Position numbers and translations under genes: made by a program. A model generated the notes under the pieces. The model worked only from the letters and a program-made list of their open reading frames with translations, made no database searches and was not told where the DNA came from. From Epsilonproteobacteria bacterium tcs-49 (GTDB lineage Bacteria > Campylobacterota > Campylobacteria > Campylobacterales > Sulfurovaceae): a stretch of 64,000 nucleotides of DNA. Within the stretch, counting starts at the first letter, position 1. The number at the start of each line of letters is the position of its first letter. The stretch is taken from positions 62,001 to 126,000 of the forward strand of contig LLYS01000001.1 in assembly GCA_002049495.1 (NCBI GenBank). The letters run 5' to 3'. Below, in pieces: positions 5,183 through 24,579 of this stretch.

Positions 5183-7873
5183 ATGTCACTGGTCAAACAG
5201 TTTTTCTCATTTTATATGACCATCGCCCTGCTGGCAATCCTGGCCATAGGTGCGGCGGTCGCTACTTTTATCGAAAACGACTTCGGAGTGGAAACCTCCA
5301 AAGTGTTGGTTTATAACTCCACCTGGTACGAATGGGCTTTGATCCTTACGGCGGTGAATATGGCAGGCATCATCTACCGCTATAAGATGTGGCGCAACAA
5401 GGCGCGCTTTATTCTGCACCTCTCTTTTATCGTTATTCTTATCGGCGCGGGCTTAACACGCTACTTCGGATATGAGGGGATTTTACATATCCGCGAAGGC
5501 CAAAGCAGCGACCGCATGATCTCAACTGAGCCCTACTTGCAGATCGAAGCGACGGTGGAGGGGGAAACCTTTTATAAAGAGTACCCCATGATGCTTCCCG
5601 CCGTAGGGGGCAGCGGCTTTGACAAAACCCTTTCGCTAAAAGGCAGAGATATCCATATCCACCTTAAAAAGTACACCTTTGCCCAGCAAAACGGGTCCAA
5701 AATGGGGATCGCCAAATTTGACGTAAGCGTCAAAGGCGAAACCAAAGAGTATACCCTGGTAGGTACCATGGGGATGGAGGGACGTCCCCAAACCCACCGA
5801 TTCGGAGATATGAAGCTCAAGATGGTGCGCGGTTCCAAACCGCTGGAACTTCCCTTTAGCGTTTACCTCAGGGAGTTTGACCTCAAGCGCTACCCCGGCA
5901 GCATGTCGCCCTCCTCCTACGCCAGCGAAGTGACGGTCAAGGACGGGGAAACGGTGTTTGATTACCGCATCTTTATGAATAATACCCTCAACTACGGCGG
6001 TTATAAATTTTTCCAAAGCTCCTATGACCAGGATGAGCGCGGTACGGTGCTTTCGGTCAACAAGGACCCGGGCAAGATCCCCACCTATATCGGATACTTC
6101 TTATTGACGTTAGGATTTTTAATGAACCTGTTTGATCGCAAAAGCCGCTTTGCACGGCTTTCAAAATACCTCAAAAGCGGTACCGCCGCGCTGCTGCTGG
6201 CACTCCTGCTGCCCCACGACGTACAAGCGGCCCAGGAGGGTGAGGATTTGGCAAAAAAATATGTGGAATCCTACACCCAAAACTCCAAAGAGACCGCGCG
6301 GCTGTTTGGCGAACTGATCACCCAGGATCGCATGGGACGGATGAAACCGGTCAATACCCTCACCACCGAAATTTTAAACAAACTGGCGCGTAAAAGCGAG
6401 TTTCTGGGAATGAACAGCGATCAGGTGGTTCTTGGTATGATGACCGCCCCGGAGATTTGGCAAAGCGTGGATCTGATCAAAGTCAAACACCCCCGGCTCA
6501 AAAAGCTTTTCGATGCGCCAAACGGCTATATCGCGTTTAACGACGGCTTCGGCGACAACGGAGAGTACAGGCTCAAAGAGTACGTGGAAAAAGCGGTACG
6601 GAAAAAACCCACCGAACGCGGGACCTTTGACAAGGGCGTCATCAAACTTGACGAGCGTCTTAATATCACCTACATGGTGTTTAACGGCTCGCTTTTTAAA
6701 ATCTTTCCAAAGCCAAACGACCCCAACCACACCTGGTATCCTCCCCTTCAGGCGATGCAAAACTTCGCCCCCGAACAGGCAAAGGAAGCGGCGAATCTGG
6801 TACAGGGCTTTTTCGGCTCGGTGATCCAGAACAATTGGGACAGCGCCGAGGAAAACGCAAAAAAGATCAAGGCTTTCCAAAAGAAGTACGGCGCGGAGGT
6901 GATGCCAAGCCAAACCAAGATCGAACTGGAACTCTTTACCAATAAGGCGGGGATCTTTCCCAAGCTGACCATCGTCTACGTTATCACCGGTTTGATCCTG
7001 CTGGTTCTTTCCTTTATCAAAGTGTTCAAACCCCGCATGAAGATGCAGCCGGTGCAAACGGGTGCCTTTTACTTTTTGGCGCTGCTGTTTCTAATCCAGA
7101 CCGCGGCGATGGGTCTGCGCTGGTATATCAGCGGCCACGCCCCCTGGAGCGACAGTTACGAATCGATGCTCTATATCGCCTGGTCGGCGATGTTTGCCGG
7201 GATCGTCTTTTTCAGAAAATCCTTCCTCGCCCTTGCCGGGACGGTGATCATGGCCGGCGTTTTCATGTTTTCGGCGCACCTGAGCTGGGTGGATCCGCAG
7301 ATTACGAACCTGGTACCGGTACTCAAATCTTTCTGGCTGACCATTCACGTCTCCATTATCACCGGCAGTTACGGCTTTTTGGCGCTGGGGGCGATCCTTG
7401 GCTTTTTGGCACTGGTACTGTTTATCTTCAGAGATGCGAACAAACCCCATATCGACGCCGAGATCAAGCATATCACGGCGATCAACGAGATGACGCTCAT
7501 TATCGGGCTGAGCCTGCTGACGGTGGGCAACTTTTTAGGCGGCGTCTGGGCCAACGAGAGTTGGGGGCGCTACTGGGGCTGGGATCCCAAGGAAACGTGG
7601 GCCTATATCTCCATCGTCGTCTACGCCATCGTGATCCACCTGCGCTTTATCAAGCCGCTGAACAACCCCTTTGTTTTCAGCACCGCTTCGCTGCTGGCGT
7701 TTGCGTCGATTTTGATGACGTACTACGGGGTCAACTTTTACCTCTCGGGGATGCACTCCTACGCTTCGGGCGACCCGGTACCGATCCCCGTTTGGGTCTA
7801 CGTCGTCACGGCGGGCGTCTTTGCCACCATCGCCCTGGCGTACCGCAAGCGGGATCTGGGCAAAATCCTTTAA
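5183..7873 (+). CDS. ccsBA: Fused cytochrome c biogenesis protein CcsBA (ResB-CcsA)
   Basis: System II cytochrome c synthase: it exports heme and attaches it to CXXCH motifs of apocytochromes at the outer face of the inner membrane. The 896-residue chain is the natural fusion found in Campylobacterota. Residues 1-330 are the ResB/CcsB part with membrane helices near 5-30, 45-70 and 295-315; a periplasmic region follows; from about 610 the CcsA part has multiple helices. The heme-handling tryptophan-rich loop reads ANESWGRYWGWDPKETW near residues 790-808, and histidines that could be axial ligands lie in HLSWVDP, TIHVS and IHLRF. An AAGGA site precedes the ATG. Its likely substrates include the cytochromes at 10.1-10.8 kb. 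Confidence 0.96.
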   Translation: MSLVKQFFSFYMTIALLAILAIGAAVATFIENDFGVETSKVLVYNSTWYEWALILTAVNMAGIIYRYKMWRNKARFILHLSFIVILIGAGLTRYFGYEGILHIREGQSSDRMISTEPYLQIEATVEGETFYKEYPMMLPAVGGSGFDKTLSLKGRDIHIHLKKYTFAQQNGSKMGIAKFDVSVKGETKEYTLVGTMGMEGRPQTHRFGDMKLKMVRGSKPLELPFSVYLREFDLKRYPGSMSPSSYASEVTVKDGETVFDYRIFMNNTLNYGGYKFFQSSYDQDERGTVLSVNKDPGKIPTYIGYFLLTLGFLMNLFDRKSRFARLSKYLKSGTAALLLALLLPHDVQAAQEGEDLAKKYVESYTQNSKETARLFGELITQDRMGRMKPVNTLTTEILNKLARKSEFLGMNSDQVVLGMMTAPEIWQSVDLIKVKHPRLKKLFDAPNGYIAFNDGFGDNGEYRLKEYVEKAVRKKPTERGTFDKGVIKLDERLNITYMVFNGSLFKIFPKPNDPNHTWYPPLQAMQNFAPEQAKEAANLVQGFFGSVIQNNWDSAEENAKKIKAFQKKYGAEVMPSQTKIELELFTNKAGIFPKLTIVYVITGLILLVLSFIKVFKPRMKMQPVQTGAFYFLALLFLIQTAAMGLRWYISGHAPWSDSYESMLYIAWSAMFAGIVFFRKSFLALAGTVIMAGVFMFSAHLSWVDPQITNLVPVLKSFWLTIHVSIITGSYGFLALGAILGFLALVLFIFRDANKPHIDAEIKHITAINEMTLIIGLSLLTVGNFLGGVWANESWGRYWGWDPKETWAYISIVVYAIVIHLRFIKPLNNPFVFSTASLLAFASILMTYYGVNFYLSGMHSYASGDPVPIPVWVYVVTAGVFATIALAYRKRDLGKIL

Positions 7874-8059: not shown

Positions 8060-8281
8060 ATGAAAAAACCGTTGCTGATCCTGTTTTTACTCTTCAGTTT
8101 CGCCTTTGCGGAGGATTTTTCCGAAATGAGCACCCAGGAACTCATCGCCATCATCGGTTACGTCAAGCAGGAGAATCAAAAGGACTTTTGGAACGAGTTG
8201 CAAAAGCGCCTCCCCGAGATGACCCCCGCGGAAAAAAAAGAGTATGAAAAGAACCTCAAAGAGCGCGTCAACCGCAAATAA
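8060..8281 (+). CDS. Small secreted DUF1104-like protein
   Basis: The 73-residue product starts with a signal peptide (MKKPLLILFLLFSFAFA, cleavage likely before EDFSEM). The mature part, FSEMSTQELIAIIGYV followed by KRLPEMTPAEKKEYEKNL, is a short helical region like the DUF1104 proteins common in Campylobacterota. Function is unknown. An in-frame ORF extends upstream to 7940, but that part runs through the palindrome and has no ribosome site; AAAGAGAG precedes the ATG at 8060. The response regulator starts two bases after its stop, so this periplasmic protein may report to, or be controlled with, the two-component pair. Confidence 0.8.
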   Translation: MKKPLLILFLLFSFAFAEDFSEMSTQELIAIIGYVKQENQKDFWNELQKRLPEMTPAEKKEYEKNLKERVNRK

Positions 8282-8283
8282 CC

Positions 8284-8955
8284 ATGCATTACTCCATCTT
8301 GCTCCTTGAAGACGACGTCAACCTCAGCGATACCGTCGAAGAGTACCTTACCGAACAAGGTTACGACGTGACTGCCGTATACGACGGCGACGAAGCGGCC
8401 GATATGCTCTATGAAAAAAACTTTGATCTCTATCTGCTCGATGTCAACGTCCCGGGGCAAAACGGCTTTGAACTGCTGCGGCACAAGCGCGGCGAAGGGG
8501 GCACGGCTCCGGCGATCTACATCACTTCGCTCAACTCCGTACAGGATCTGGAAAAGGGGTATGAGAGCGGTTGTGACGACTATATCCGCAAACCCTTTGC
8601 GCTCAAAGAACTCGCCCTGCGCATCGAAACACTGCTCAAAAGAGGCTACTTCCACGAAAGCGGCGAGATGCTGCGGCTTGACGGACAGCTTGCGTATGAT
8701 TTGAAAAACAACCAGTTGTATAGAGAAGATACGCCCGTCAATCTCGGGAATAAGGAGAACAGATTGCTGCAACTGTTTCTGCGCCACCGCGACGAACTGC
8801 TCAGCCACGAACGCATCTACGACGCGCTGTGGGAGTATGATGAACAAGCCAGCGAAAGTTCGCTGCGTACCTACATCAAGAATCTGCGAAAACATTTAGG
8901 GAAGGACCGCATTGTTAGCGTTAAAAAGCTGGGGTATCGATTTACTTCAAAGTGA
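8284..8955 (+). CDS. OmpR-family response regulator
   Basis: Two-domain transcriptional regulator of 223 residues. Residues 1-118 are a receiver with the acidic pair Glu9-Asp10, phospho-acceptor Asp53 (LLDVNVPG), a Thr in YITSLNS and the lysine in IRKPFALK. Residues 130-223 are a winged-helix DNA-binding domain (NKENRLLQLFLRH, SSLRTYIKNLRKHLG, VKKLGYRFTSK). It overlaps the downstream kinase gene by 44 bases and is its obvious partner. Targets are unknown; the linked cytochrome genes make a redox role possible. Confidence 0.93.
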   Translation: MHYSILLLEDDVNLSDTVEEYLTEQGYDVTAVYDGDEAADMLYEKNFDLYLLDVNVPGQNGFELLRHKRGEGGTAPAIYITSLNSVQDLEKGYESGCDDYIRKPFALKELALRIETLLKRGYFHESGEMLRLDGQLAYDLKNNQLYREDTPVNLGNKENRLLQLFLRHRDELLSHERIYDALWEYDEQASESSLRTYIKNLRKHLGKDRIVSVKKLGYRFTSK

Positions 8956-10096
8956 AAAAAAGACCCTCTACAGTTTCCTGGGGCTTTACAGCTTTCTCAG
9001 CATCGTCATACTGGCTTTTATCTGCCTGCTGTATTACAACTTTGAAAAGGATCTAATGCTCCAAAGCAAACGCCCCCTTTTACAAAAATACGCCGATGAA
9101 CTCATCTATGAACTCAAACAGCTGCATATCAACTTTGACAAACAGCGCACCTACCCACGCTTTGAGGAGTTTGATTCGGCGATCTTTGACAGCAGTAAAA
9201 AGCGCATCTTTTCCACCATGCCCGATGCCGAAATCGATCTTAACAGTATCCTTTATGTCCGGGGGGAGCATATCTACTTCATCGACCAGCCCGAATCCTA
9301 CTACCTGGGCAGCCAGTACGTGGTGCTTCGCATCAAAGATGACGGGACCTGGCGCCAGGCGGTGCTGGGGGATATCTTGCTCTACGGCTCCTTGGCTTTC
9401 GGATTCATGCTGTTTGTGGGGTATTTTCTGCTGCGGCTGTTTTTAAAGCCGATGAACGAAGCGCTGCATCTGCTTGATCGCTTCATCAAAGATACCACCC
9501 ATGAGCTCAACACCCCCGTCAACGCCATCATCTCCAACGTAGAGATGATCGAAAGCGAACCCCTGGAACCCAAACTCCAAAAACGGATAAAACGGATCGA
9601 TATCGGAGCGAAAACCATCTCCAACCTCTACCAGGATTTGACCTATCTGACCCTGGGCCACCGGCTGCTTAGCCAGGATGAACCCGTAGATATCCCCGCG
9701 CTGCTGCAGGAGCGGCTGGAGTATTTCCAAACGCTCCTGGAAGCTAAAAAGCTGACCCTGCACGTCGATCTGCGCCCCGCTACCTTGCAAATCGATCGCG
9801 TCAAATTCGCAAAGCTCATCGACAACCTGCTTTCCAACGCTATCAAATACAACCGCGTCAAAGGCTCGATCACCGTCTCCAGCGACAAACACCGCATCAG
9901 CATTGCAGACAGCGGCCGGGGGATGGAAAAGGCGCAGATCGATCGGATGTTTGAGCGTTTTTCCCGCTTTGATAGCAGCGTAGGCGGCTTTGGGATCGGA
10001 TTGAGTATCGTATCGATGATCGCCAAAGAGTACGGGATCGCCATCGAAATCGATTCGACCCCCAAAAAAGGAACAAAGGTGACACTCTCATGGTAA
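8912..10096 (+). CDS. Membrane sensor histidine kinase, partner of the upstream regulator
   Basis: The 394-residue kinase has membrane helices near residues 20-42 and 155-178 with a periplasmic sensor region of about 110 residues between them. The dimerisation helix carries the phosphorylated His197 in TTHELNTPVNAI. The ATPase domain shows the N box DNLLSNAIKYNR, the G1 box IADSGRGM, the F segment MFERFSRF and the G2 box GFGIGLSIV. The start is a TTG at 8912 preceded by GAAGGA at 8901-8906, inside the regulator gene. Its stop overlaps the ATG of the next gene by seven bases, so regulator, kinase and cytochrome are translationally linked. Confidence 0.92.
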   Translation: MLALKSWGIDLLQSEKKTLYSFLGLYSFLSIVILAFICLLYYNFEKDLMLQSKRPLLQKYADELIYELKQLHINFDKQRTYPRFEEFDSAIFDSSKKRIFSTMPDAEIDLNSILYVRGEHIYFIDQPESYYLGSQYVVLRIKDDGTWRQAVLGDILLYGSLAFGFMLFVGYFLLRLFLKPMNEALHLLDRFIKDTTHELNTPVNAIISNVEMIESEPLEPKLQKRIKRIDIGAKTISNLYQDLTYLTLGHRLLSQDEPVDIPALLQERLEYFQTLLEAKKLTLHVDLRPATLQIDRVKFAKLIDNLLSNAIKYNRVKGSITVSSDKHRISIADSGRGMEKAQIDRMFERFSRFDSSVGGFGIGLSIVSMIAKEYGIAIEIDSTPKKGTKVTLSW

Positions 10097-11186: not shown

Positions 11187-11720
11187 ATGGATGCACAAAA
11201 ACTTTTAGAAGCCGTCAACCGCAAAACCGAAGAAAAACTGGGACGCAGAGTGATCGACGAGATCGAAGTGATCCCCAACGGAAAGGTAAAGGTATATTTC
11301 TCCAACGGCAACGTAAAGTGGTTTATCAATTTTTACGAATGTTTCCACAGCCTCAACTACCAGTACAACCTCAAACTCGCCCCCGTAAAAACCTCCTTTG
11401 CCAAGCTGATCGAGGAGCAGGTTCCCAACCGGGAGTCCAAGCGCCTGGCGACGCTCAAGGTGCGCCTCTCCAGCGAAATCCAGATTATCATCGACCGCTA
11501 CGAAAGCGAAAAGCTCAAATATTTCAAAAACACGATTTACAAAGAGATACGGGAACTCTTTTTCAACGAGACCGACCTTTTGAAGCTTTCAAAGAAGGAG
11601 TACTTTGCCCTGCGCGGCTATCTGTATAAGGAGCTGCGGGAAAAGTACCGCCGCAGCGGCTATATCGTCGATATCCTCAACAAGATGCGCACCATCGATT
11701 ACGAAGAGCTTTTCGAGTAA
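11187..11720 (+). CDS. Unknown protein, first of two tandem paralogues
   Basis: A 177-residue cytoplasmic-looking protein with no signal peptide or membrane helix. The N-terminal part (residues 1-62) has a beta-rich pattern with NGKVKVYF and the motif WFINFYECFHSLNYQYNL; the remainder is charged and helical (YESEKLKYFKNTIYKEIRE, YIVDILNKMRTIDYEELF). AGGAA stands about six bases before the ATG. The gene at 11920 encodes a clear paralogue. I do not recognise the family. It has its own promoter and lies between cytochrome genes and the chemosensory operon, so neighbours give little hint. Confidence 0.72.
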   Translation: MDAQKLLEAVNRKTEEKLGRRVIDEIEVIPNGKVKVYFSNGNVKWFINFYECFHSLNYQYNLKLAPVKTSFAKLIEEQVPNRESKRLATLKVRLSSEIQIIIDRYESEKLKYFKNTIYKEIRELFFNETDLLKLSKKEYFALRGYLYKELREKYRRSGYIVDILNKMRTIDYEELFE

Positions 11721-11903: not shown

Positions 11904-11919
11904 GAAATTGGAACGAACA

Positions 11920-12462
11920 ATGAATCCCTCTTTTTTAATGGATGCGGTCAACGGCAAAACCCAACGGCATTTGAATAAAAAGGTGCTGCTTTCCATAAGC
12001 AGCAGCCCCAACGGCAAGATCGTCGTGCGCTACTACAGCGGCAAAGTGGAGTGGTATATCAACTTTTACGAATGCTTCTACAGCCTCTCCAACCGCTACA
12101 ACCTCTCCCTGCATAAAACCCGGCCGAAGCCCTTTCTCTTTGCAGGCACAGATCTGCCCGCTGCCGGTAAAAGGGACAAAGAGCGCCTGGAGGGCGTAAA
12201 AAACCTGATCGTCAAGGATTTTGAAAATATCCTCAGCCGCTACAATACAAAAAAGATGCGCTATTTTAAAAATATGATCCATAAAGAGCTCAAAGAGTAC
12301 CTTTATGAAAGTAACGACCTGATCAGACTCAGCCCCAAAGCGTTTAAACAGGTTATGCAACAAATCTGTGACCGCTTTCAAAAGCGCTACGCCAAAGAGA
12401 TCTATATCATCGATATCTTTGCACGCCTTCGCAGTATCAGATATGACGATCTTTTTGATTGA
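11920..12462 (+). CDS. Unknown protein, second of two tandem paralogues
   Basis: The 180-residue product shares with the upstream gene the pattern DAVNxKT, SPNGKIVVRYYSGKVEWYI, NFYECFYSL, YNLSL, MRYFKNMIHKELKEYLYES and the ending IYIIDIFARLRSIRYDDLF. Identity is patchy, so the duplication is old. A TTG at 11908 is in frame, but the ATG at 11920 matches the N-terminus of the paralogue better. The 199-base gap between the two genes holds AT-rich DNA and a hairpin rather than a shared operon junction, so they may be transcribed separately. It converges on the receiver gene at 12469 with six bases between stops. Confidence 0.7.
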   Translation: MNPSFLMDAVNGKTQRHLNKKVLLSISSSPNGKIVVRYYSGKVEWYINFYECFYSLSNRYNLSLHKTRPKPFLFAGTDLPAAGKRDKERLEGVKNLIVKDFENILSRYNTKKMRYFKNMIHKELKEYLYESNDLIRLSPKAFKQVMQQICDRFQKRYAKEIYIIDIFARLRSIRYDDLFD

Positions 12463-12468
12463 TCCGCG

Positions 12469-12852
12469 CTAGATTTTAGTCGTTCGCTTGATCCCCATAA
12501 TCAACTTTTTAGGTTGAAAAGGTTTGGTTATCCAACCCGCAAGACCGATCTCCTTGGCCTTTGATTTCAACTCCGGTTTATTCTCCGTCGTTAACGCCAG
12601 GATCGGCTTGAGCTTCACCGATGCTTTGGCTTTCAAGCGTTTTGCCATCTCCAAACCGTTCATCTGCGGCATATTCACGTCCGTAATGACAAGATCGTAA
12701 ACAAACCCCTGCTCCACGGCATCAAGAAGTTCCAGCGGGTTCTCAAAGGTTTTTATACTGATCTGCTCCTTTTCAAGCAGCGGCTGCACCGCCATCTCGG
12801 CACTCATCAACACCGTTTTGGAATCATCTACGAAAACAATCTGTTTTGCCAT
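12469..12852 (-). CDS. CheY-like single-domain response regulator
   Basis: A 127-residue stand-alone receiver with Asp9-Asp10, phospho-acceptor Asp58 (VITDVNMPQMNG), a Thr at LALTTE and the lysine in WITKPFQPKK. It has an AAGGAG site before the ATG and is the last gene of the chemosensory operon, three bases after the STAS gene. It is the likely diffusible output of the CheA encoded at 17.7-19.8 kb, although it need not act on the flagellar motor. Confidence 0.92.
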   Translation of the reverse strand: MAKQIVFVDDSKTVLMSAEMAVQPLLEKEQISIKTFENPLELLDAVEQGFVYDLVITDVNMPQMNGLEMAKRLKAKASVKLKPILALTTENKPELKSKAKEIGLAGWITKPFQPKKLIMGIKRTTKI

Positions 12853-12855
12853 CCC

Positions 12856-13089
12856 TTACTCCTTCTTATCGACGACGTTATCAAAAAGCAGTTGGAAAAA
12901 GCTCTCCTTCGCCGCAATCTTTTTACTTTTGCCGCTGCACAGCAGCACCTGCATCGCCGCGGGATCGATGGTATCGCTATCGATCTGGATCCTTTCGATC
13001 TCCTCTTGCGACAAGATGGCGATCAACTCCTCCACCCCCTCATCGGAGATAGGGTCTTGTATATACAGCACTCCCTCTTCTATATTCAT
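12856..13089 (-). CDS. Short STAS-domain-like protein in the chemosensory operon
   Basis: The 77-residue product resembles the STAS fold of anti-sigma antagonists: a first strand GVLYIQDPISDE, helix VEELIAILSQ, strand IERIQIDSD and helix AAMQVLLCSG. In SpoIIAA-type proteins a phosphorylated Ser lies at the start of that helix (D-S-S/A-G); here the segment reads DPAAMQV, with no Ser at that place. The gene starts inside cheR (50-base overlap) with a strong AAAGGAG. STAS proteins occur in other chemosensory operons as partner-switch or scaffold parts; the exact role here is inferred only. Confidence 0.7.
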   Translation of the reverse strand: MNIEEGVLYIQDPISDEGVEELIAILSQEEIERIQIDSDTIDPAAMQVLLCSGKSKKIAAKESFFQLLFDNVVDKKE

Positions 13090-13924
13090 CTTGACTCCTT
13101 TGTCTTTCTTTTGTGTATACGACGTTTTGGCCTACCTTCACGCTGTTAAAGGAGGAGGACGCCCGGCCCATGCTTTCGGCATGTCCCAAAAAAACATACC
13201 CGTGGGGTTTTAAAATGTCGTGGAAATTCCGTACCACTTCACGCCTGGATAACTCATCGAAATAGATCAGCATATTTCGGGAAAAGATCACGTCAAAACT
13301 GCGCAATCGCCGCATCTGTTCCCGGTCCATGATATTAACGACTTTGAACGTGACCGAATCTTTGACCTCATTATGCAGTTCATACCGGTTGAGCGCGCAC
13401 TCTTTGAAAAAGGAGCGCAAAAGCTTTTTGGGCAGATTCTGGACGCTTCGCTTGCCGTATACCCCCTGTTTAGCCTCTTCGATCACTCTGTTGTCGATAT
13501 CGATCCCGACAATCTCAAAATCCGCCCGATGCAACAAACTGTTCTCCTCCAGCAGGTGCAGAACGATCGAATAGGGCTCCTCGCCCGTCGATGAGGGCGC
13601 ACACAGTACCCGCAACGGTTCGCTGTCCCCCTTTTCGTCCAGGATTTGCGGAAACACGTTGCCAATGAGTGTATCAAACTGGTGTTTCTCCCTGTAGAAG
13701 TAGGTTTCGTTGATCGTGACGATATTGATCAGCTTTTGAAAATTTTTCGATTCTGCGTTAAAGCGCAAATCCCTGTAAAAGGTTCTATAATTTGAAAACC
13801 CGCTTTTTTCGATCAAACGTTCAATCTTTGTCTTGAGCTTTTCATACCTGTTCGGCGGCGTCGAAATACCGCAGCGGGCATAGATCAACTCTCCAAGCTC
13901 GTTAAACTCACCTTTGCTCAGCAT
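13040..13924 (-). CDS. cheR: Chemoreceptor methyltransferase CheR
   Basis: SAM-dependent methyltransferase that methylates glutamates of chemoreceptors. The 294-residue protein has the N-terminal helical domain (residues 1-75), the signature TINETYFYREKHQFD, the SAM loop LCAPSSTGEEPYSIV and the acidic strand VGIDIDN, then IFSRNMLIYFDE and FLGHAESM. A tail of about 30 residues follows the catalytic domain. No receptor in the window ends in an obvious CheR-binding pentapeptide, so it probably docks directly on the methylation helices. It lies between cheB and the STAS gene. Confidence 0.95.
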   Translation of the reverse strand: MLSKGEFNELGELIYARCGISTPPNRYEKLKTKIERLIEKSGFSNYRTFYRDLRFNAESKNFQKLINIVTINETYFYREKHQFDTLIGNVFPQILDEKGDSEPLRVLCAPSSTGEEPYSIVLHLLEENSLLHRADFEIVGIDIDNRVIEEAKQGVYGKRSVQNLPKKLLRSFFKECALNRYELHNEVKDSVTFKVVNIMDREQMRRLRSFDVIFSRNMLIYFDELSRREVVRNFHDILKPHGYVFLGHAESMGRASSSFNSVKVGQNVVYTKERQRSQDEYRRGSAVYTRPYLR

Positions 13925-13939: not shown

Positions 13940-15031
13940 TTACTTTCCAAATTCCAGGATCTCTTCTATAATCCGATCGAAGGGCAGCTGCTTTGTCGCC
14001 GCACCTATACGCGCGGCTTCTTTTGGCATCCCGTATACCGTAGCACTCTCTTCGCTCTCGGCCAGGGTGCGCGCTCCCGCTTGTTTCAGCGCAAGCAGCC
14101 CCTTCGCCCCGTCGGTACCGATCCCGGTCAACTCCACGGCCAGTACCTTCCCGGGATCGAAATGGCGCTGCGCGGAGCAAAACAGTTCGTCTATACTGGG
14201 GGTAAAAAAGTGCTCCTGGGTATTGTGCACCACTTTAAGCACATATCTCCCCGACGCTTTTTTACTCAGCAGCGTATGTTCTCCCCCTTTCGAGATCACA
14301 AACATCCCCCGTCCCAGTACCAAGTTGTTGCTTGATTCCACAACGTTCAGCTCACTTTTTTTTTGCAGCCGCGCGGCAAATCCGGAGGTAAAGTTCGCAG
14401 GCATATGCTGCGCGACGATCACCGGGTGGGGGTAGTTGTGCGGCAGTACGGTCGCGATCTGTTCGATCAGCTTCGGTCCCCCCGTCGAGGAGCCGACAAG
14501 GACAAGCCTTTCAAAACTCCCCTCGCTTTTTTGCTTTTTGCTCTCCATATGAAAAGCCGCTTCGGATTTGATCCGTGTAAGGTTGTGCAGCCTCTGCCGC
14601 GACCGCCTGCGCAAAAACAGTTTGCGCCGCGGAAGACGGATAAGGCTTTGAATCTTGGAGCGAAGCTCCCTCCCCTCATCCTCCGTATTGACGCTGAAGG
14701 TCCCCGGTTTGGCCACGAAATCGATCGCCCCCTCCTGCAGCGCCTCAAAGGTGGTTTTGGATTCCCCGTCGGTAAGGGAGCTGACCATCAGCACCGGCAT
14801 CGGTTCGGTTTGCATAATCCGTTTCAGCGTACTCAAACCGTCCATAACCGGCATATTGATATCCAGCGTCACCAGGTCGAAACGTTTCTCCTGCGCAAAC
14901 AGCTTCTCCAGCGCGTCCTCCCCGTTTTTGGCAAATTCATGCTCATATCCCATCTGTTTGATAAAGGAGGCGAGCTTTTTGCGTACTAAAGCGGAATCGT
15001 CCACGATCAAAACCCTTTTGGCGGCATTCAT
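13940..15031 (-). CDS. cheB: Chemoreceptor methylesterase / receiver CheB
   Basis: Two-domain protein of 363 residues. The receiver (1-120) has Asp11-Asp12 and phospho-acceptor Asp57 (VTLDINMPVMDG), and controls the C-terminal esterase. The esterase domain (about 170-360) shows the catalytic serine in GSSTGG, histidine in AQHMP and aspartate in GIGTDGAKGL. Some Campylobacter CheB proteins lack the receiver; this one has it, so adaptation can be phosphorylation-controlled. Its ATG overlaps the stop of the CheW-CZB gene by four bases. Confidence 0.95.
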   Translation of the reverse strand: MNAAKRVLIVDDSALVRKKLASFIKQMGYEHEFAKNGEDALEKLFAQEKRFDLVTLDINMPVMDGLSTLKRIMQTEPMPVLMVSSLTDGESKTTFEALQEGAIDFVAKPGTFSVNTEDEGRELRSKIQSLIRLPRRKLFLRRRSRQRLHNLTRIKSEAAFHMESKKQKSEGSFERLVLVGSSTGGPKLIEQIATVLPHNYPHPVIVAQHMPANFTSGFAARLQKKSELNVVESSNNLVLGRGMFVISKGGEHTLLSKKASGRYVLKVVHNTQEHFFTPSIDELFCSAQRHFDPGKVLAVELTGIGTDGAKGLLALKQAGARTLAESEESATVYGMPKEAARIGAATKQLPFDRIIEEILEFGK

Positions 15032-15810
15032 CCTACCTCATCCTCCTCTACGATAAAATCCTCGATCACCGTAGCGATCTTGCCGTTTTCCAACTCCACC
15101 GCGGAATCAAATTTCACCACGTCGTTCCTACTGACCTTATCCAGTGTTTGCAGGTCGCTGTTTTCGATCTTGATGATATCCTCGACGCTGTCAACGAGGA
15201 TATTGAGCGTTTCTTCCCGGGAGTTTTTCACGGTAATGATGCGCTGCAGGGTGTTGGTCCACTGCACGATATTGGCTTCAAACTCCCGTATCAACTCTTC
15301 GACGGTGGTATGAAACTGACTGATGTGGGTCAACTCATCCTCATATTCGCTTCCCTCTTTCTGTTTTTTAATGGCGATGCCCGCGCCCTCGTGAAAGGAT
15401 TTATGTGCCGGAATAAGCTTGGTTTTGAGCAGATTCAAACTCTCTTCGTCACAACTGAGGCAGCTGGATTTTTCTATGATCCACTTCCCCAGCGTACACT
15501 TGGTATGATCCAGGGTGCGTTTAAACTCCCTGCCGGTTTTCAAACACTCCCGAAGATCCATCTCATACTCGTTGTGGGCACGGACAAAGGATTCGGTATT
15601 TTCCTCCTCCTCTTCACTCAACTCCCGGTACCCCATCAACTTTCTAAAGCTGATCACCGTACCGATGTTGCCCCGGATATTCATAACGCCCCAGATATAT
15701 TCGGGGACTTCGGGGATGGCCGTCACGTCCTTGGGGCGCAAAATCTCCAGCACCTTCTCCGTATTGATCGCAAAATTTTTATCTTTAATATTAAAAAGCA
15801 GTAGTTCCAT
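15028..15810 (-). CDS. CheW-type coupling protein with inserted CZB zinc-binding domain
   Basis: The 260-residue chain is a CheW fold split by a second domain. Residues 1-62 (LLFNIKDKNFAINTEKVLEI, then VMNIRGNIGTVISFRKLMG) are the first CheW half; residues 190-255 (TLNILVDSVEDIIKI, GKIATVIEDF) are the second half. Between them lies a chemoreceptor zinc-binding (CZB) domain with the ligand set His79, Cys105 (in CTLGKW), His136 and His140. In DgcZ and TlpD-type proteins this His-Cys-His-His site binds zinc, and the Cys responds to zinc loss or oxidants. So this coupling protein may itself sense zinc or hypochlorite-like oxidants while linking the receptor to CheA. It has an AGGAGG site and sits between the receptor and cheB. 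Confidence 0.88.
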   Translation of the reverse strand: MELLLFNIKDKNFAINTEKVLEILRPKDVTAIPEVPEYIWGVMNIRGNIGTVISFRKLMGYRELSEEEEENTESFVRAHNEYEMDLRECLKTGREFKRTLDHTKCTLGKWIIEKSSCLSCDEESLNLLKTKLIPAHKSFHEGAGIAIKKQKEGSEYEDELTHISQFHTTVEELIREFEANIVQWTNTLQRIITVKNSREETLNILVDSVEDIIKIENSDLQTLDKVSRNDVVKFDSAVELENGKIATVIEDFIVEEDEVG

Positions 15811-17740: not shown

Positions 17741-19804
17741 TCACTGCCACGAAGCAACGTTTGATAATTTATTGACGTCTAAGATGAAAAGCACGCTTCC
17801 GTTACCCAAAAGCGAACTTCCCGAAATGATCGGATGCTTCTGCAACGCACCGCTCAAGGGTTTTTGCACCACGTCAAGCTGGTTTACGAACTCATCAACC
17901 ACCATGGCGAATTTTTTTTCGCCCGATTGCAGCACGATCACTTTTTGCTGCTCCTGCTCCTTTGCCCCGCTGCCGATAAGCGCTTTTGGGTAGGTGATGG
18001 GCAGCAACTCTCCCCGACGCTGTAAAAAGGGCTTTTTGTTTGATTCTTGTATCTGGTTCTTTTCTATCTGTGAAGTTTCGATGAGATAATCCATGGCGAT
18101 AGCGTAATCGGTATCGTTCATCTTGATATGAAACACGTTGGTCAAAGCCACGCTGACGGGAAGTTCCAGGGTGATCGTCGTGCCCTCGCTCTTTTGCGAA
18201 TCCACGGCGATGGTCCCGTTGAGGTTTTCGATGGCTGTTTTGACCGCATCCATCCCCACGCCCCTGCCGCTGAGGTCGCTGATCTGCTTTTTCGTGGTCA
18301 AGCCGGCGTGAAAGATCAGTTGCAAAATCTCCGTTTTACCCATCTGCTGCGCCCGCTCCCGTGAAACCAAACCGTTTTCCAAAGCCTTGTGCAAAATCGC
18401 CTCTTCGTCGATCCCTTTGCCGTCGTCTTTGATCGTTATAAAAACCTTATCCCCTTCCGAACACGCTTCGATCGAAATCGTACCGGCTTCCGCTTTCCCC
18501 GCGTCCAGACGCTCCTGAGCGCTTTCGATCCCGTGGTCGAGGGAGTTTCGTATCAGGTGGATCATGGGATCGGCCAAACTCTCGATCATCGTTTTATCCA
18601 GTTTGGTCTCCCCGCCGCTTTCCTCATATTTGATCTTTTTCCCCAACTGCTTGCTCAGATCGCGCACCAGCTTGGGGTAGCGGCCGAAGATATAACTCAG
18701 CGGCAGCAGCCGCATCGACATGACGATCTCTTGCAGCTGGGAGGTCACCCTGCTGATCTGGTCATACTTTGAGAGGATATCGCGCTTTGATTGCTCCATC
18801 GTATCGGCGTTGAGCGTTTGCACGATATAGGGCATGGAGTTTTTCATCACCAAAAGTTCCCCGATCGTATCCATCAGGTTATCGATCTGTTCCTGCTCGA
18901 TCTTGACGGTTTTTCCGATAGCAGCTGTTTTCACAGCGGGCTTTTGTCGCGTCACAGGGGTACTTTCCGTCCCCTTTGCGCTTTCCGGCGCCTTGCCGTA
19001 AACGGCTTCGACGCCCTCCCTGTCCAGGGGATAAAGGGCGATTTCGTCTAAAACGTTTTCACAGATATCTTCGATCGTCTCTTCGTCGCTGCAAAGGATC
19101 GCCACGATCCGAGTAGCCCAGTGCAACGGATTTTGCTCGATCTCTTCGCAGCTTTGCGCGATCTCGAGCTTGATATGCTTTAACTCCTTTTCAAAAAGCG
19201 AAAGCAGATAAAACGGATCGTTTCCCAGCGTTATCGTATCCACGTCCAAATCGCAATCGAGAAGATAGTAATTGGGGGTATTGATAAATCCCTCATCGAT
19301 AAAGGGAGGGTGCTCGGGCAAAGCTTTAAGCGTCTCGGACAACTCCCCCTGTGTAAAATAGCGCAGCGGCTTGGGGGGCTCTTTGCTCAGCGGCAGCGAA
19401 GTGTCGCACCCGCTACGCTCATCTTGCTTTTCATGCAGCATCGCATCGGCTTTTTCGATCAGAGGCTGCGTTAGGGAAGGATCCTCCGGGGGGATATCCT
19501 CTCTGGCTTCGGCGTCATCGAGAAGCTCCACGACGCTGTCAAACAGATCAAACAGTACCTCCGGAAGACGCGGCGTATACTCCAATGCGCCCCGGCGGTA
19601 CATATCCAAAAGATCCTCGGCGCGGTGGGTCAGTTTCTGCACGTCGCCAAAGCCCACCAGACCGGCTCCGCCTTTGAGGGTGTGCGCCGCGCGGAACAGC
19701 GCATCGATATCGCACGTTTCATCTTTGAGCGTTTCAAGGTTTTCATCGAGATAGTGCAGATTATCCCGGGCTTCATTTAAAAACTGTTCGAGCAATTGGT
19801 TCAT
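17741..19804 (-). CDS. cheA: Chemotaxis-type histidine kinase CheA
   Basis: The 687-residue kinase has the domain order P1 (Hpt, phosphorylated His41 in AAHTLKGGAGLVGFGD), a middle region of about 190 residues with a possible P2, P3 dimerisation helices (IDNLMDTIGELLVMKNSM), P4 ATPase (HLIRNSLDHGIE, DDGKGID, SDLSGRGVGMDAVK) and P5 CheW-like regulatory domain (VALTNVFHIKM, FAMVVDEF). There is no C-terminal receiver, unlike the flagellar CheA of Campylobacter and Helicobacter, which points to a separate chemosensory pathway. GAAGGAG precedes the ATG. It phosphorylates CheB and one or more of the receivers in this operon. Confidence 0.96.
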   Translation of the reverse strand: MNQLLEQFLNEARDNLHYLDENLETLKDETCDIDALFRAAHTLKGGAGLVGFGDVQKLTHRAEDLLDMYRRGALEYTPRLPEVLFDLFDSVVELLDDAEAREDIPPEDPSLTQPLIEKADAMLHEKQDERSGCDTSLPLSKEPPKPLRYFTQGELSETLKALPEHPPFIDEGFINTPNYYLLDCDLDVDTITLGNDPFYLLSLFEKELKHIKLEIAQSCEEIEQNPLHWATRIVAILCSDEETIEDICENVLDEIALYPLDREGVEAVYGKAPESAKGTESTPVTRQKPAVKTAAIGKTVKIEQEQIDNLMDTIGELLVMKNSMPYIVQTLNADTMEQSKRDILSKYDQISRVTSQLQEIVMSMRLLPLSYIFGRYPKLVRDLSKQLGKKIKYEESGGETKLDKTMIESLADPMIHLIRNSLDHGIESAQERLDAGKAEAGTISIEACSEGDKVFITIKDDGKGIDEEAILHKALENGLVSRERAQQMGKTEILQLIFHAGLTTKKQISDLSGRGVGMDAVKTAIENLNGTIAVDSQKSEGTTITLELPVSVALTNVFHIKMNDTDYAIAMDYLIETSQIEKNQIQESNKKPFLQRRGELLPITYPKALIGSGAKEQEQQKVIVLQSGEKKFAMVVDEFVNQLDVVQKPLSGALQKHPIISGSSLLGNGSVLFILDVNKLSNVASWQ

Positions 19805-19828: not shown

Positions 19829-21244
19829 TTAAAAAAAATCGATATCATCTTCATCGTCGTCGTTTTCCCGGCTGGGATCGACCATCATCTCCAGCTGCAA
19901 GCAGGAGCTAAAAAGCGAACTGTCGAGATAGTGGATATCCAGACTGTCACGGTTGATAAAGATCGAATCGACCCAGTAACGAAGATCCTTGGAAACCGCT
20001 TCTAAAAGAATGACGCCGTTTTCCTGAAGCTGTTCGTCGCCGCTTTGGGCAAACCGGTCAATCACCGAAACAAGTCCGTTGAGCGCTTTGATCAAATCGC
20101 TGAACTCAAACAAAATGGAGATCGCTTTGACAAACATCAAAATGCGGTGTGAAAACTGCTCCAGTCCCGGCCCCATCTCGATCTCTTTGCACCGCATCTG
20201 CGTCAAAAGTTCCGAAAGCTCCTCATTGAGTTCGTCAAGCTCCTGGATCTGTTGCAAAGTCTCTTCGTCCAGTTCGAGCAGATACTCCCGGGCACTCGTT
20301 TTATGGCTGTGGGAGCGTCTGAGCAAAAACTTTTCATCCTCCTGCAGGCTCTTTTCGAAACCGCCGCTCTTTTTTTGCTCCCTCTCCGGCTTTGCCGCGA
20401 TCTTGAAGTTTTTACCCCCCGTAAAAACATAGTCCCGAAAGGTATGGCCGTAGTTTTCCAACTTGACTTTGTTGTATTCCTGCTTCGTAATATCGTAAAA
20501 CATCGCCAGGTAGTAGGGACGATCCGCGACGAGAAACCGTGTTTTGATCAAGTGAAAATAGTGTATATAACCGTTAAAACGCAGCGCTACCTTCTCCGTC
20601 CGGTTATCCCCTTGCGGCGGTTCGAGGCTCTTTAAACAATCCGGAATGTTTAAAAAACGCTCCTCAACAGCACCTATGTTCGCGCCCTCGACGCTTTCTT
20701 GCAGCAGTTGACGCAACACGTCGTTGATAAACTCCACCCTCTCTTGCGTATAGATCATCGTCGGATGGGATGAGGTTTTTGCCAATTCGATCACCGCAGA
20801 CGTACCGCTTTCAAACCCGGCGCGTTTTGTCAAATGCCGTCTGGAAAAAGCGGTCTCGGCCAGATAGCCGATCGCCTCGAGCGTTTGCTCTATCTCAAAA
20901 GGCTTTATAAGAAACTTTTCCACGTGCAGATCGATAGAAGCCAGGAGATACTCCTCCTTTGGCCGCGTGCTTGTCAATGCCACGACCACTTCCGGACAGC
21001 GGTGTTTTATCTTTTGGATCAGTTCAAGACCGCTCAAGCCGGGGAGGTCCACATCTGCGATAACGATATCAAAATGCTTATCATAAAAAGCGTTTAACCC
21101 CCGCGTCCCGTCATTGACCGTTGTGACACGCTGGAACGCGTCCAAAACGGAACCGTTGAGCAAAGCTTTGCTTTGTGCGTCGTCATCCACATAGAGCAAA
21201 GAGAGGTTGTTGCACGATTTTTGCAACCTGCTAAGCTGTTGCAT
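19829..21244 (-). CDS. Receiver-PAS-like response regulator with helical C-terminus
   Basis: The 471-residue protein starts with a receiver: acidic triplet Asp20-22, phospho-acceptor Asp64 (VIADVDLPGLSG) and FLIKPFE. Residues 150-265 look like a PAS domain (PTMIYTQERVEFINDVLRQLL, RPYYLAMFYDIT). The C-terminal 170 residues are helical, include an acidic heptad-like run (EETLQQIQELDELNEELSE) and end in a very acidic tail. No enzymatic output domain is visible. Its ATG overlaps the stop of the upstream receiver gene (TAATG) and cheA follows after 24 bases, so it belongs to the chemosensory operon and may be an output or a phosphate sink. Confidence 0.85.
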   Translation of the reverse strand: MQQLSRLQKSCNNLSLLYVDDDAQSKALLNGSVLDAFQRVTTVNDGTRGLNAFYDKHFDIVIADVDLPGLSGLELIQKIKHRCPEVVVALTSTRPKEEYLLASIDLHVEKFLIKPFEIEQTLEAIGYLAETAFSRRHLTKRAGFESGTSAVIELAKTSSHPTMIYTQERVEFINDVLRQLLQESVEGANIGAVEERFLNIPDCLKSLEPPQGDNRTEKVALRFNGYIHYFHLIKTRFLVADRPYYLAMFYDITKQEYNKVKLENYGHTFRDYVFTGGKNFKIAAKPEREQKKSGGFEKSLQEDEKFLLRRSHSHKTSAREYLLELDEETLQQIQELDELNEELSELLTQMRCKEIEMGPGLEQFSHRILMFVKAISILFEFSDLIKALNGLVSVIDRFAQSGDEQLQENGVILLEAVSKDLRYWVDSIFINRDSLDIHYLDSSLFSSCLQLEMMVDPSRENDDDEDDIDFF

Positions 21245-21630
21245 TACAGCACCTTTTCGATAGCGCTGGAAAGCTTTTGATAATTGATCGGTTTGGTCAC
21301 GAGCTGGCAGTTGAAGTTTGCCAACTCGTTCAGATCGATATCACTGTGTCCCGTAATAAAGATCGTTTTGATTTCGGGGTGGAACCGTTCGATGGCACGC
21401 ACCATCTCGATCCCGTCCATCGAGGGCATACTGATATCGGTAATAACCATATCGATTTTGTACTTGATCGCCAGGGACAACCCCTCCACCCCGTTTTGGG
21501 CAAAGAAGGTTTTGCGATAAAGATTCGACATCACCGTTTCCATAGCGTGAAAAACCGTTTTCTCATCATCCACAAAAAGTACGTTAAGCTTTTTTAGATG
21601 CAGCAGCATCGTTTCGCTAAATTCATTCAT
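21244..21630 (-). CDS. Single-domain receiver protein
   Basis: A 128-residue CheY-like receiver with Asp21-Asp22, phospho-acceptor Asp65 (VITDISMPSMDG), Thr in IFITGHSD and Lys in LVTKPINYQK. The ATG at 21630 is preceded by AAGGAGG with five-base spacing; an in-frame start at 21651 would lie upstream of that site. It is coupled to the next gene by a one-base stop-start overlap. Confidence 0.9.
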   Translation of the reverse strand: MNEFSETMLLHLKKLNVLFVDDEKTVFHAMETVMSNLYRKTFFAQNGVEGLSLAIKYKIDMVITDISMPSMDGIEMVRAIERFHPEIKTIFITGHSDIDLNELANFNCQLVTKPINYQKLSSAIEKVL

Positions 21631-21741
21631 AATACCCTCCTTCGTTGGCATAACGAAGAATAAAATAAAAAAGTGGGGTTTTTGTGGTATTAGCTTGAAG
21701 AGTTACAAGTAGATGTCATTTTTTATTTTAGCGGAAAGTTT

Positions 21742-22581: not shown

Positions 22582-24579
22582 TTGAAAAGTTTTCACTTCT
22601 ATTACGACGATATATTTTTTGATACGAATATTAAAAGGGTGGGCAAGGAGATGCCCAAAAACAGTACGGCTTTGATCCAAGTCTTCGCACATAGAAACTG
22701 CCGCAGCCATATCTCCGGTTTGTGCGGCAAACTCAAAACCGTTTTTAAAGATGCGCTGATCATCGGCAGTACCAGCGACGGGGAGTTTATCGGCTCCAAC
22801 GTTACCATCGATCAAACGGTGGTGGCGATCACCGTATTTGAAAACTCCCACCTTGAACTCGTCAGTGAAAACTTTGAAACCGGCGACGATTACTACGAGC
22901 TGGGGAAAAATCTCGTCGCTGCTTCCCACCCTCGGGCGAAGGTTTTTATCTGCTTCGCCACCGCGGTTAATTTCAACGCCGAGGAGTTTCTTTCCGGCAT
23001 CGATTCGGTTTTGGATTGCGAAACCGTTTCCGGCGGCATCGCGGCCGGGGAGTCTCCGCTGGTATTTGACCACGCCTCAATCTATGCGGAGGGGGCCGTC
23101 GGGGTTTTGATCTACAATAAGGACCTGCGGGTGCAAACCTTTTCAAAATCGGGTTGGGTCCCCGTGGGCAAGGGAATGAAGATCACAAAAGCGGAAAAAA
23201 ACCGGGTCTATACCATCGACAACAAACCCGCCATAGAGATGTATAAATACTACCTGGGCGAAGGGGTAACCCATCTGCTGCACCGCATCGGTATCGAGTT
23301 CCCCCTGATTAATAAAAAAACGAAAAAAGCCCGGGCGCTGCTGAATATAAACGGCGACGGTTCCATCTATTTCGGAGGGAACTTCGCTCCCGGGGATCGG
23401 GTTTTTTTCGGCTACGGCAGCCAGGAACTTTTTTTGGAAAACCACTCCTCCCCTCCGCCGCACATGGTGCAAAACTGTTTTGAAACCATCTTCGTCTACT
23501 CCTGCATCGCCCGCAGAAAGCTGATGCCAGACAGCGTCTACAGAGAGATCGAACCCTATACGCAACTTGCCCCGGTGGGCGGCTTCTTCACCCACGGTGA
23601 ATTCTTCACCAAAAATAAAAAGCACCTGTTTCTTAACCAGACCATGAGTGTTCTGGCGATGAGCGAAGCCCCCTGCGAAAGCAGCAACATCCCCCTGAAG
23701 GGCCGCTACTACGACACCATAGACAATATCGACTACTACCACACCCAAAAAGCGCTGATGCACCTGATCAAAAGGGATTCGCAAGAGATTGAGGAGCTCA
23801 ATAAAAACTTGGAAAAACGGGTTAAGGAGAAGCTTAGGGAGCTGCGGGAAAAAGACGCGCTTTTACTCCAGCAGTCAAAGCTGGCCTCCCTCGGGGAGAT
23901 GATAGGCAACATCGCCCACCAGTGGAGGCAGCCGCTTAACGTCATCGGGGCTTTACATATGTGGATAGAAGCGAAGATGTATGAAAAAGGGTTTCTTGAT
24001 AAAACCGATTATAAAGATATCAATGAAACGGTCAACGAACAGCTTGAATATATGTCAAACACCATCGATGATTTTCGGGGGCTGGTCAAAAACGGCGAGA
24101 TAACCAAACGTTTCAATCTCACAAAAGCGGTACAAAACGTTATCAAACTGTTGCAAAGCGATTTTAAGCGTTACGGAATCACGATCCTCCTGCAGGGGGA
24201 CGATATCTATTGCGTGGGAAACAGCAGCAACTTCAAACATGTGGTGATCAATATCCTCAACAATGCAAAAGACGCTATCTGCAGCCACTCCGAGCATAAG
24301 CAAAACTATATCCTCATCTCCGTCGGCGGCAGAGACGATCAGGTCCATATGGAGATCCAGGATACCGGGGGAGGCATCGACGAAGCGATCAAGGAGAAAA
24401 TTTTCGACCCCTACTTCTCCACAAAGTTCAGAAACAAGGGGACGGGGATCGGTCTTTATATGAGTTATAAGATCATCAATACCCAGTTTAACGGCTCCAT
24501 ATCCGCCAAAAACACGCGCTTTGATCACCGCGGTACAACCTTCAAAGGAGCAAATTTCAAAATAACGATCACCTCATAG
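22582..24579 (+). CDS. FIST-domain sensor histidine kinase
   Basis: Cytoplasmic kinase of 665 residues without membrane helices. Residues 20-375 match FIST and FIST_C sensor domains (IIGSTSDGEFIG, SGGIAAGES, GAVGVLIYNKDL, GFFTHGEFF), which are thought to bind small ligands, perhaps amino acids. A coiled coil (400-430) leads to the kinase core with His446 in IAHQWRQPLN, then VVINILNNAKDAI, IQDTGGGI and GTGIGLYMSYKI. The start is a TTG with AAGG seven bases upstream. It is divergent from the chemosensory operon and followed by a receiver-GGDEF-EAL gene and another kinase, so a His-Asp relay to the EAL protein is plausible. Confidence 0.9.
   Translation: MKSFHFYYDDIFFDTNIKRVGKEMPKNSTALIQVFAHRNCRSHISGLCGKLKTVFKDALIIGSTSDGEFIGSNVTIDQTVVAITVFENSHLELVSENFETGDDYYELGKNLVAASHPRAKVFICFATAVNFNAEEFLSGIDSVLDCETVSGGIAAGESPLVFDHASIYAEGAVGVLIYNKDLRVQTFSKSGWVPVGKGMKITKAEKNRVYTIDNKPAIEMYKYYLGEGVTHLLHRIGIEFPLINKKTKKARALLNINGDGSIYFGGNFAPGDRVFFGYGSQELFLENHSSPPPHMVQNCFETIFVYSCIARRKLMPDSVYREIEPYTQLAPVGGFFTHGEFFTKNKKHLFLNQTMSVLAMSEAPCESSNIPLKGRYYDTIDNIDYYHTQKALMHLIKRDSQEIEELNKNLEKRVKEKLRELREKDALLLQQSKLASLGEMIGNIAHQWRQPLNVIGALHMWIEAKMYEKGFLDKTDYKDINETVNEQLEYMSNTIDDFRGLVKNGEITKRFNLTKAVQNVIKLLQSDFKRYGITILLQGDDIYCVGNSSNFKHVVINILNNAKDAICSHSEHKQNYILISVGGRDDQVHMEIQDTGGGIDEAIKEKIFDPYFSTKFRNKGTGIGLYMSYKIINTQFNGSISAKNTRFDHRGTTFKGANFKITITS

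Follow-up and report, generated by a model that had tools for sequence, protein, structure and literature searches.

A CheW adaptor with a CZB domain nested in its fold, encoded beside a DosM-type receptor: a candidate input into a sensor-less chemosensory array

How does a chemosensory array receive a signal when its receptor has no sensor? The question arises for DosM, since 98% of its homologues are without sensors and the input of DosM arrays has to come from other receptors or sensory proteins (PMC9321776). Within a stretch of 64,000 nucleotides from Epsilonproteobacteria bacterium tcs-49 (contig LLYS01000001.1, positions 62,001 to 126,000; hereafter the window), a gene for a CheW protein with a CZB domain, cheW-CZB, lies beside a gene for a DosM-like receptor, and a CheW with a built-in zinc or oxidant sensor in that position is a concrete candidate for how DosM/F9 arrays are addressed. 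A preliminary description of the locus supposed that CheW-CZB proteins may exist in databases but that their mechanism is hardly described. They do exist and are already known as a class: Perkins et al. (2021, PMC8262984) named them as a subgroup within the CZB proteins, and PMC10653840 cites this work. The subgroup makes up 1.4% of 10,140 sequences and is most abundant in Clostridia (PMC8262984). The main text of that paper does not use the word insert, and neither gene context, a link to DosM nor loss of the insert was found there. Likewise, in the portion of the open-access literature covered we found no account of a nested CZB, of an association with DosM, of CheW-CZB in the CheW3 slot, or of repeated presence and absence of the insert, although one paper in that portion contains both the terms CZB domain and DosM, and it is these features that appear to be new here.

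The cheW-CZB gene (Table 1) has the ribosome-binding site GGAGG, and its stop overlaps the start of cheB. The product matches the Pfam CheW family (E = 7.1e-22) in two stretches, the best covering residues 2-69 (profile positions 1-68) and the second profile positions 66-128. In a phmmer search of the PDB, residues 3-64 aligned with residues 14-75 of the solved CheW 2qdl and residues 191-243 with residues 83-134; the C-terminal stretch alone is weak (3.3 bits), yet it is collinear with the N-terminal one. Since this alignment is split at a single connection, some 125 residues stand in for a connection of about 7. The Pfam CZB profile matches residues 79-145 with 22.8 bits (E = 1.2e-4), below its cut-off of 29.4 bits, so that the CZB of the window is divergent, while those of the relatives G134, G343 and G361 score above the cut-off (34.9-37.9 bits); a sequence profile of the insert returned only chance matches to TRPM3 from the PDB. 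The domain boundaries, set from homologues at 1-64, 65-186 and 187-255, lie close to the CheW segments first proposed (1-62 and 190-255).

Table 1. Coordinates of the cheW-CZB gene, its domains and predicted ligands, and the neighbouring genes within the window
Feature	Position	Strand	Basis or remark
cheW-CZB	15028-15810	-	one ORF, 260 aa, ATG start
CheW N-terminal half, residues 1-64 (beta1 to beta5 plus a short helix)	15619..15810	-	Pfam CheW profile 1-68; 2qdl 14-75; model strands E2-8 to E48-54
Nested CZB domain, residues 65-186, ~122 residues, helical	15253..15618	-	Pfam CZB 79-145; Foldseek 3t9o rmsd 2.5; absent as a single block from same-slot plain CheWs of relatives
CheW C-terminal half, residues 187-255 (beta6 onwards)	15046..15252	-	CheW profile 66-128; 2qdl 83-134; model strands E190-195 to E245-252
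His79, predicted zinc ligand 1	15574..15576	-	H in 67/76 homologues (88%)
Cys105 (C-x-L-G-x-W motif), predicted to bind zinc and to react with oxidants	15496..15498	-	C in 71/76 (93%); role known from TlpD, DgcZ (PMC6715182, PMC8262984)
His136, predicted zinc ligand 3	15403..15405	-	H in 72/76 homologues (95%)
His140, predicted zinc ligand 4	15391..15393	-	H in 68/76 homologues (89%)
Extra Cys117-x-x-Cys120 pair	15451..15462	-	8/76 homologues: window, G134, six orphan copies
Single-domain receiver protein	21244..21651	-	stop overlaps start of the 471-aa receiver gene
Receiver-domain protein, 471 aa	19829..21244	-	C-terminal part without Pfam match; upstream in same run
CheA kinase, 687 aa (Hpt, dimerisation, HATPase, CheW-like)	17741..19804	-	Pfam
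DosM-like receptor, 632 aa	15820..17718	-	two MCPsignal stretches; 35% over 96% to plasmid receptors encoded beside triple CheW
CheB	13940..15031	-	Pfam REC + CheB
CheR	13040..13924	-	Pfam
CheY-like response regulator	12469..12852	-	Pfam

AlphaFold was run for CheW-CZB on seven homologues, and two of the five models were confident (mean pLDDT 87.8 and 84.8; the other three 54-57). The best (pLDDT 87.8, pTM 0.79) is built of beta strands as far as residue 54, of helices between residues 64 and 188, and of strands again from 190. In Foldseek its alignments to CheW chains of known structure extended over some 250 columns and took in both halves, with TM-scores by target of 0.70-0.77 against crystal and cryo-EM chains and 0.57-0.61 against NMR models, and it matched the CZB of DgcZ (3t9o) with TM-scores by target of 0.75-0.77, an rmsd of 2.5-2.8 angstrom, probabilities of 0.99-1.00 and E-values of 0.05-0.3. 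Given these matches, the two halves are predicted to complete a single CheW fold in the best model, as the preliminary description had anticipated for a structure prediction, and the insert is predicted to have the CZB fold. Its central claim, that a CZB sits inside CheW, is thus borne out by the Pfam halves, the collinear split along 2qdl and the AlphaFold and Foldseek results, and nesting in the beta5-beta6 connection is confirmed. Chance or a frame artefact as the source of the combined reading frame is ruled out by the homologues, the ligand conservation and the structure.

The ligand set named at the outset (His79, Cys105, His136, His140) is present and falls in conserved columns. The complete 3His/1Cys set occurs in 65 of 76 CheW-CZB homologues, the window included, in keeping with the conservation that had been expected of them; at least one ligand is missing from the remaining 11, and to that extent the set is not universal. 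The ligand columns are among the most conserved of the insert, whose median column has its top residue in 44% of sequences, and of 100,000 sets of four insert columns drawn at random, 18 reached the ligand mean, a descriptive figure since the sequences are related. The C-x-L-G-x-W motif is nearly invariant across the 76. The window protein resembles the subgroup of PMC8262984 in joining CheW and CZB in one protein, in its 3His/1Cys set, in the residue after the Cys, which is Ala or poorly conserved there (Thr in the window, Ala in G134), and in a CZB that groups with non-receptor CZBs, a group in which most members have Trp three residues after the first His (Tyr in the window).

These data bear on the proposal that the CZB is a relic or neutral insert with a decaying sensor, the protein acting as an ordinary CheW. 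Repeated loss of the insert (see below), the degraded ligand sets in 11 of 76 homologues, the sub-threshold Pfam score in the window and the faster evolution of the insert relative to CheW (26% identity between window and G134, against 52% for the CheW parts) would all fit. We nonetheless hold this to be distinctly improbable, given that individual ligand columns are kept at 88-95%, the insert median being 44%, that most homologues retain all four ligands, and that the motif at Cys105 hardly varies.

The gene belongs to a minus-strand run of genes for a receiver, a receiver protein, CheA, the receptor, CheW-CZB, CheB and CheR, followed after a gap of 187 bases by cheY; in G134 a 345-aa receiver protein precedes cheA. 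The receptor has two signalling tips, with the E-x-GKGFAVV motif at residues 184 and 484, but no sensor domain and no transmembrane helix (maximum 19-residue hydropathy 1.0). Its AlphaFold model consists of long helices with dips in confidence near 185, 335 and 485, with a clear turn at tip 1 and a dip only at tip 2. Three plasmid relatives of the receptor were examined (31-35% identity over 85-97%), and each is followed by a long CheW protein, cheB, HEAT, cheR, cheY and cheA; both of the long CheW proteins that were split into domains (2 of the 3) have three CheW domains. This layout corresponds to that of DosM and CheW3 in the F9 class (PMC7534058, PMC9321776). The neighbour that had been described as a receptor without sensor is, to judge by its sequence, a DosM-type double-signalling receptor, and the link drawn to it stands.

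The cluster shares with the F9 class (V. cholerae cluster I: DosM, CheW3, CheA; PMC7534058, PMC9321776) a sensor-less double-signalling receptor, the presence of cheA, cheB, cheR and cheY in one cluster, and the order dosM-adaptor-cheB. It differs in that the adaptor of F9 is CheW3, whereas the window and G134 have CheW-CZB. No CheW3 was found among the 13 CheW matches of the window's genome or in the G134 genome, and there is no HEAT-repeat gene in the window's che cluster; because CheW3 is missing, we call the cluster F9-like and not strictly F9. A CheW-CheW-receiver protein from a second che cluster of the same genome was considered as a CheW3 candidate and rejected, since it has two CheW domains plus a receiver and the cluster has a different receptor; this protein (502 aa) and the adjoining receptor, which has HAMP_2 repeats, are encoded on contig C15 (L056:6646-8154 and 8164-9957). 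Several other genes were observed around these clusters. FIST-domain histidine kinases are encoded near the DosM/CheW-CZB clusters of the window (22582-24579) and of G134 (L048:11173-12906), in G134 the interval from cheW-CZB to cheB contains a small dinitrogenase FeMo-cofactor family gene (L048:7643-8092), and two tandem paralogous ORFs (11187-11720 and 11908-12462; 177 and 184 aa, 36% identical) without a convincing Pfam family lie beside the che cluster of the window on the opposite strand.

Full-length CheW-CZBs were found 7 times among 397 sampled Campylobacterota genomes, and each of the seven belongs to a cluster that also encodes a DosM-like receptor. Two of them, those of the window and G134 (40% identity), are placed between dosM and cheB, the CheW3 slot of F9 clusters; the other five, from another family, lie directly after cheA, with CheW3 present in its usual place. 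A search of that whole family gave matches in 82 of 228 genomes and 11 of 18 genera, a count that includes plain CheWs, and some of its genomes have two tandem CheW-CZB copies. In several genomes the tandem genes after cheA are followed by a gene for a ParA-like ATPase (L208:8580-10417; L209:7632-9176). CheW-CZB occurs in 1 of 104 genomes of the family of G134 and in none of the other genomes listed for the window's own family, the latter being consistent with sporadic transfer, as PMC9321776 infers for F9 clusters. Two scans of genome contigs and one of viral contigs gave no relatives, and no CheW-CZB was found on plasmids, where the inspected matches in Aneurinibacillus, Acetoanaerobium and Deferribacter are CheWs without a recognised CZB.

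With CheW-CZB in place of CheW3 at this slot in both the window and G134, and no CheW3 found in either genome, it is not unreasonable to consider that the CZB is a dimerisation device, its homodimers tying two CheW-CZB chains together in place of the covalent chaining of CheW3 and stabilising the array, perhaps zinc-dependently. The alpha1 helix of CZB does form much of the homodimer interface of DgcZ (PMC8262984). This is the main rival, and we think it unlikely: in the other family CheW3 and CheW-CZB coexist and several sister genes have no insert, so that the CZB is not a necessary link there, and dimerisation by itself would not call for zinc ligands as conserved as these.

The same sister genes show that the insert can be removed. 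In several genomes a plain CheW of 142-146 aa takes the place after cheA, and for the two that were compared in detail the identity to the CheW part of sisters with the insert is 55-67%. In a tree of 87 CheW parts, built with the insert columns left out, plain genes are scattered over four positions among those with a CZB, and the well-supported branches force at least four changes between insert and plain. With at least four switches in the same slot the CZB looks like an optional module, and sister genes with and without it are ready-made natural controls; the CheWs without insert, together with the homologues that have lost a ligand, indicate that CheW works without a CZB.

As to direction, losses would be the simpler course, since the CZBs of the seven first-found CheW-CZBs form one clade against 37 other CZBs (support 100/98), although gains are also possible. 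A common origin for the CheW parts found in the window and G134 and those of the other family is compatible with the AU test (p = 0.31) but not demonstrated by it. Outside the clade, the nearest CZBs in the tree belong to short proteins and to non-receptor ones, which agrees with cluster III of PMC8262984, and a derivation from receptors of the window's own genome is not supported by the separate clade. That clade also weighs against the idea that the CZB serves to bring in a partner or to position the adaptor, for example by pairing with other CZB proteins, with no sensing by itself. The window's genome does have 10 CZB matches, all nine besides CheW-CZB carrying a receptor signalling motif, and DosM arrays are considered to depend on partner receptors (PMC9321776), but we would give this idea little credence.

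We favour, at a probability of roughly 55%, the reading that a CheW with a nested cluster-III (diguanylate-cyclase-like) CZB is one signal route into a DosM-type cytoplasmic array, with zinc or oxidation modulating coupling; because the adjoining receptor has no sensor of its own, the adaptor may be where the signal enters. Two precedents are pertinent. HOCl oxidises the CZB cysteine of TlpD and thereby turns CheA off, as shown in vitro with a reconstituted complex (PMC6715182), and DgcZ is inhibited by zinc via its CZB (PMC8262984). Both share with the window protein the CZB fold, the His/Cys ligand set and the Cys-x-x-Gly-x-Trp motif, but there the CZB sits at the end of a receptor or cyclase, whereas here it lies inside an adaptor, tethered at both ends. 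CheA contacts CheW at the beta3-beta4 loop and strands beta4-beta5 (PMC3737408), and the insertion site follows strand beta5, next to this region. From these precedents and this position we infer that the state of the CZB modulates the coupling of DosM to CheA by CheW.

In the proposed mechanism, CheW-CZB would serve a purely cytoplasmic DosM-type array. Zinc held by His79, His136, His140 and Cys105 would keep the CZB folded, with receptor tips linked to CheA by CheW. If Cys105 were oxidised or zinc occupancy changed, the CZB helices would be altered, and these, tied at both ends into the CheW fold beside beta5, could change contacts with CheA or the receptor, or the stability of the ring, and with them CheA output. 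Zinc binding is presumed here, as are the signal sensed in the cell, the direction of the response and the gating of coupling. A spirochete adaptor, CheWS (CheW-CheRlike; PMC10653840), similarly joins CheW to a further domain proposed to feed a signal via the adaptor, although that domain is a different one and is fused, not nested. More tentatively, and with doubts outweighing our confidence, stimuli could enter DosM-type arrays via the adaptor ring and not only via the receptor, a zinc/thiol switch in CheW gating how a scaffold receptor without sensor is coupled to the kinase. Lineages would then turn this input on by retaining the CZB and off by excising it. If true, the adaptor ring of an array can act as an input layer.

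One further feature of the insert is the extra cysteine pair at positions 117 and 120, which is missing from the 9 other CZB domains of the window's genome. The six orphan copies that carry it represent a second locus of the other CheW-CZB family, and the five such loci inspected all lie outside che clusters. Four of the five, which come from a single genus, have a thioredoxin gene immediately upstream in the same orientation (L203:7151-8280, L205:7110-8259, L206:12777-13899 and L207:331-1465); being of one genus and of the orphan type, these count as one locus and not as independent cases. The fifth, in L204, adjoins a glutathione peroxidase gene instead (6400-6939), and these neighbours, though close to a single case, suggest thiol chemistry.
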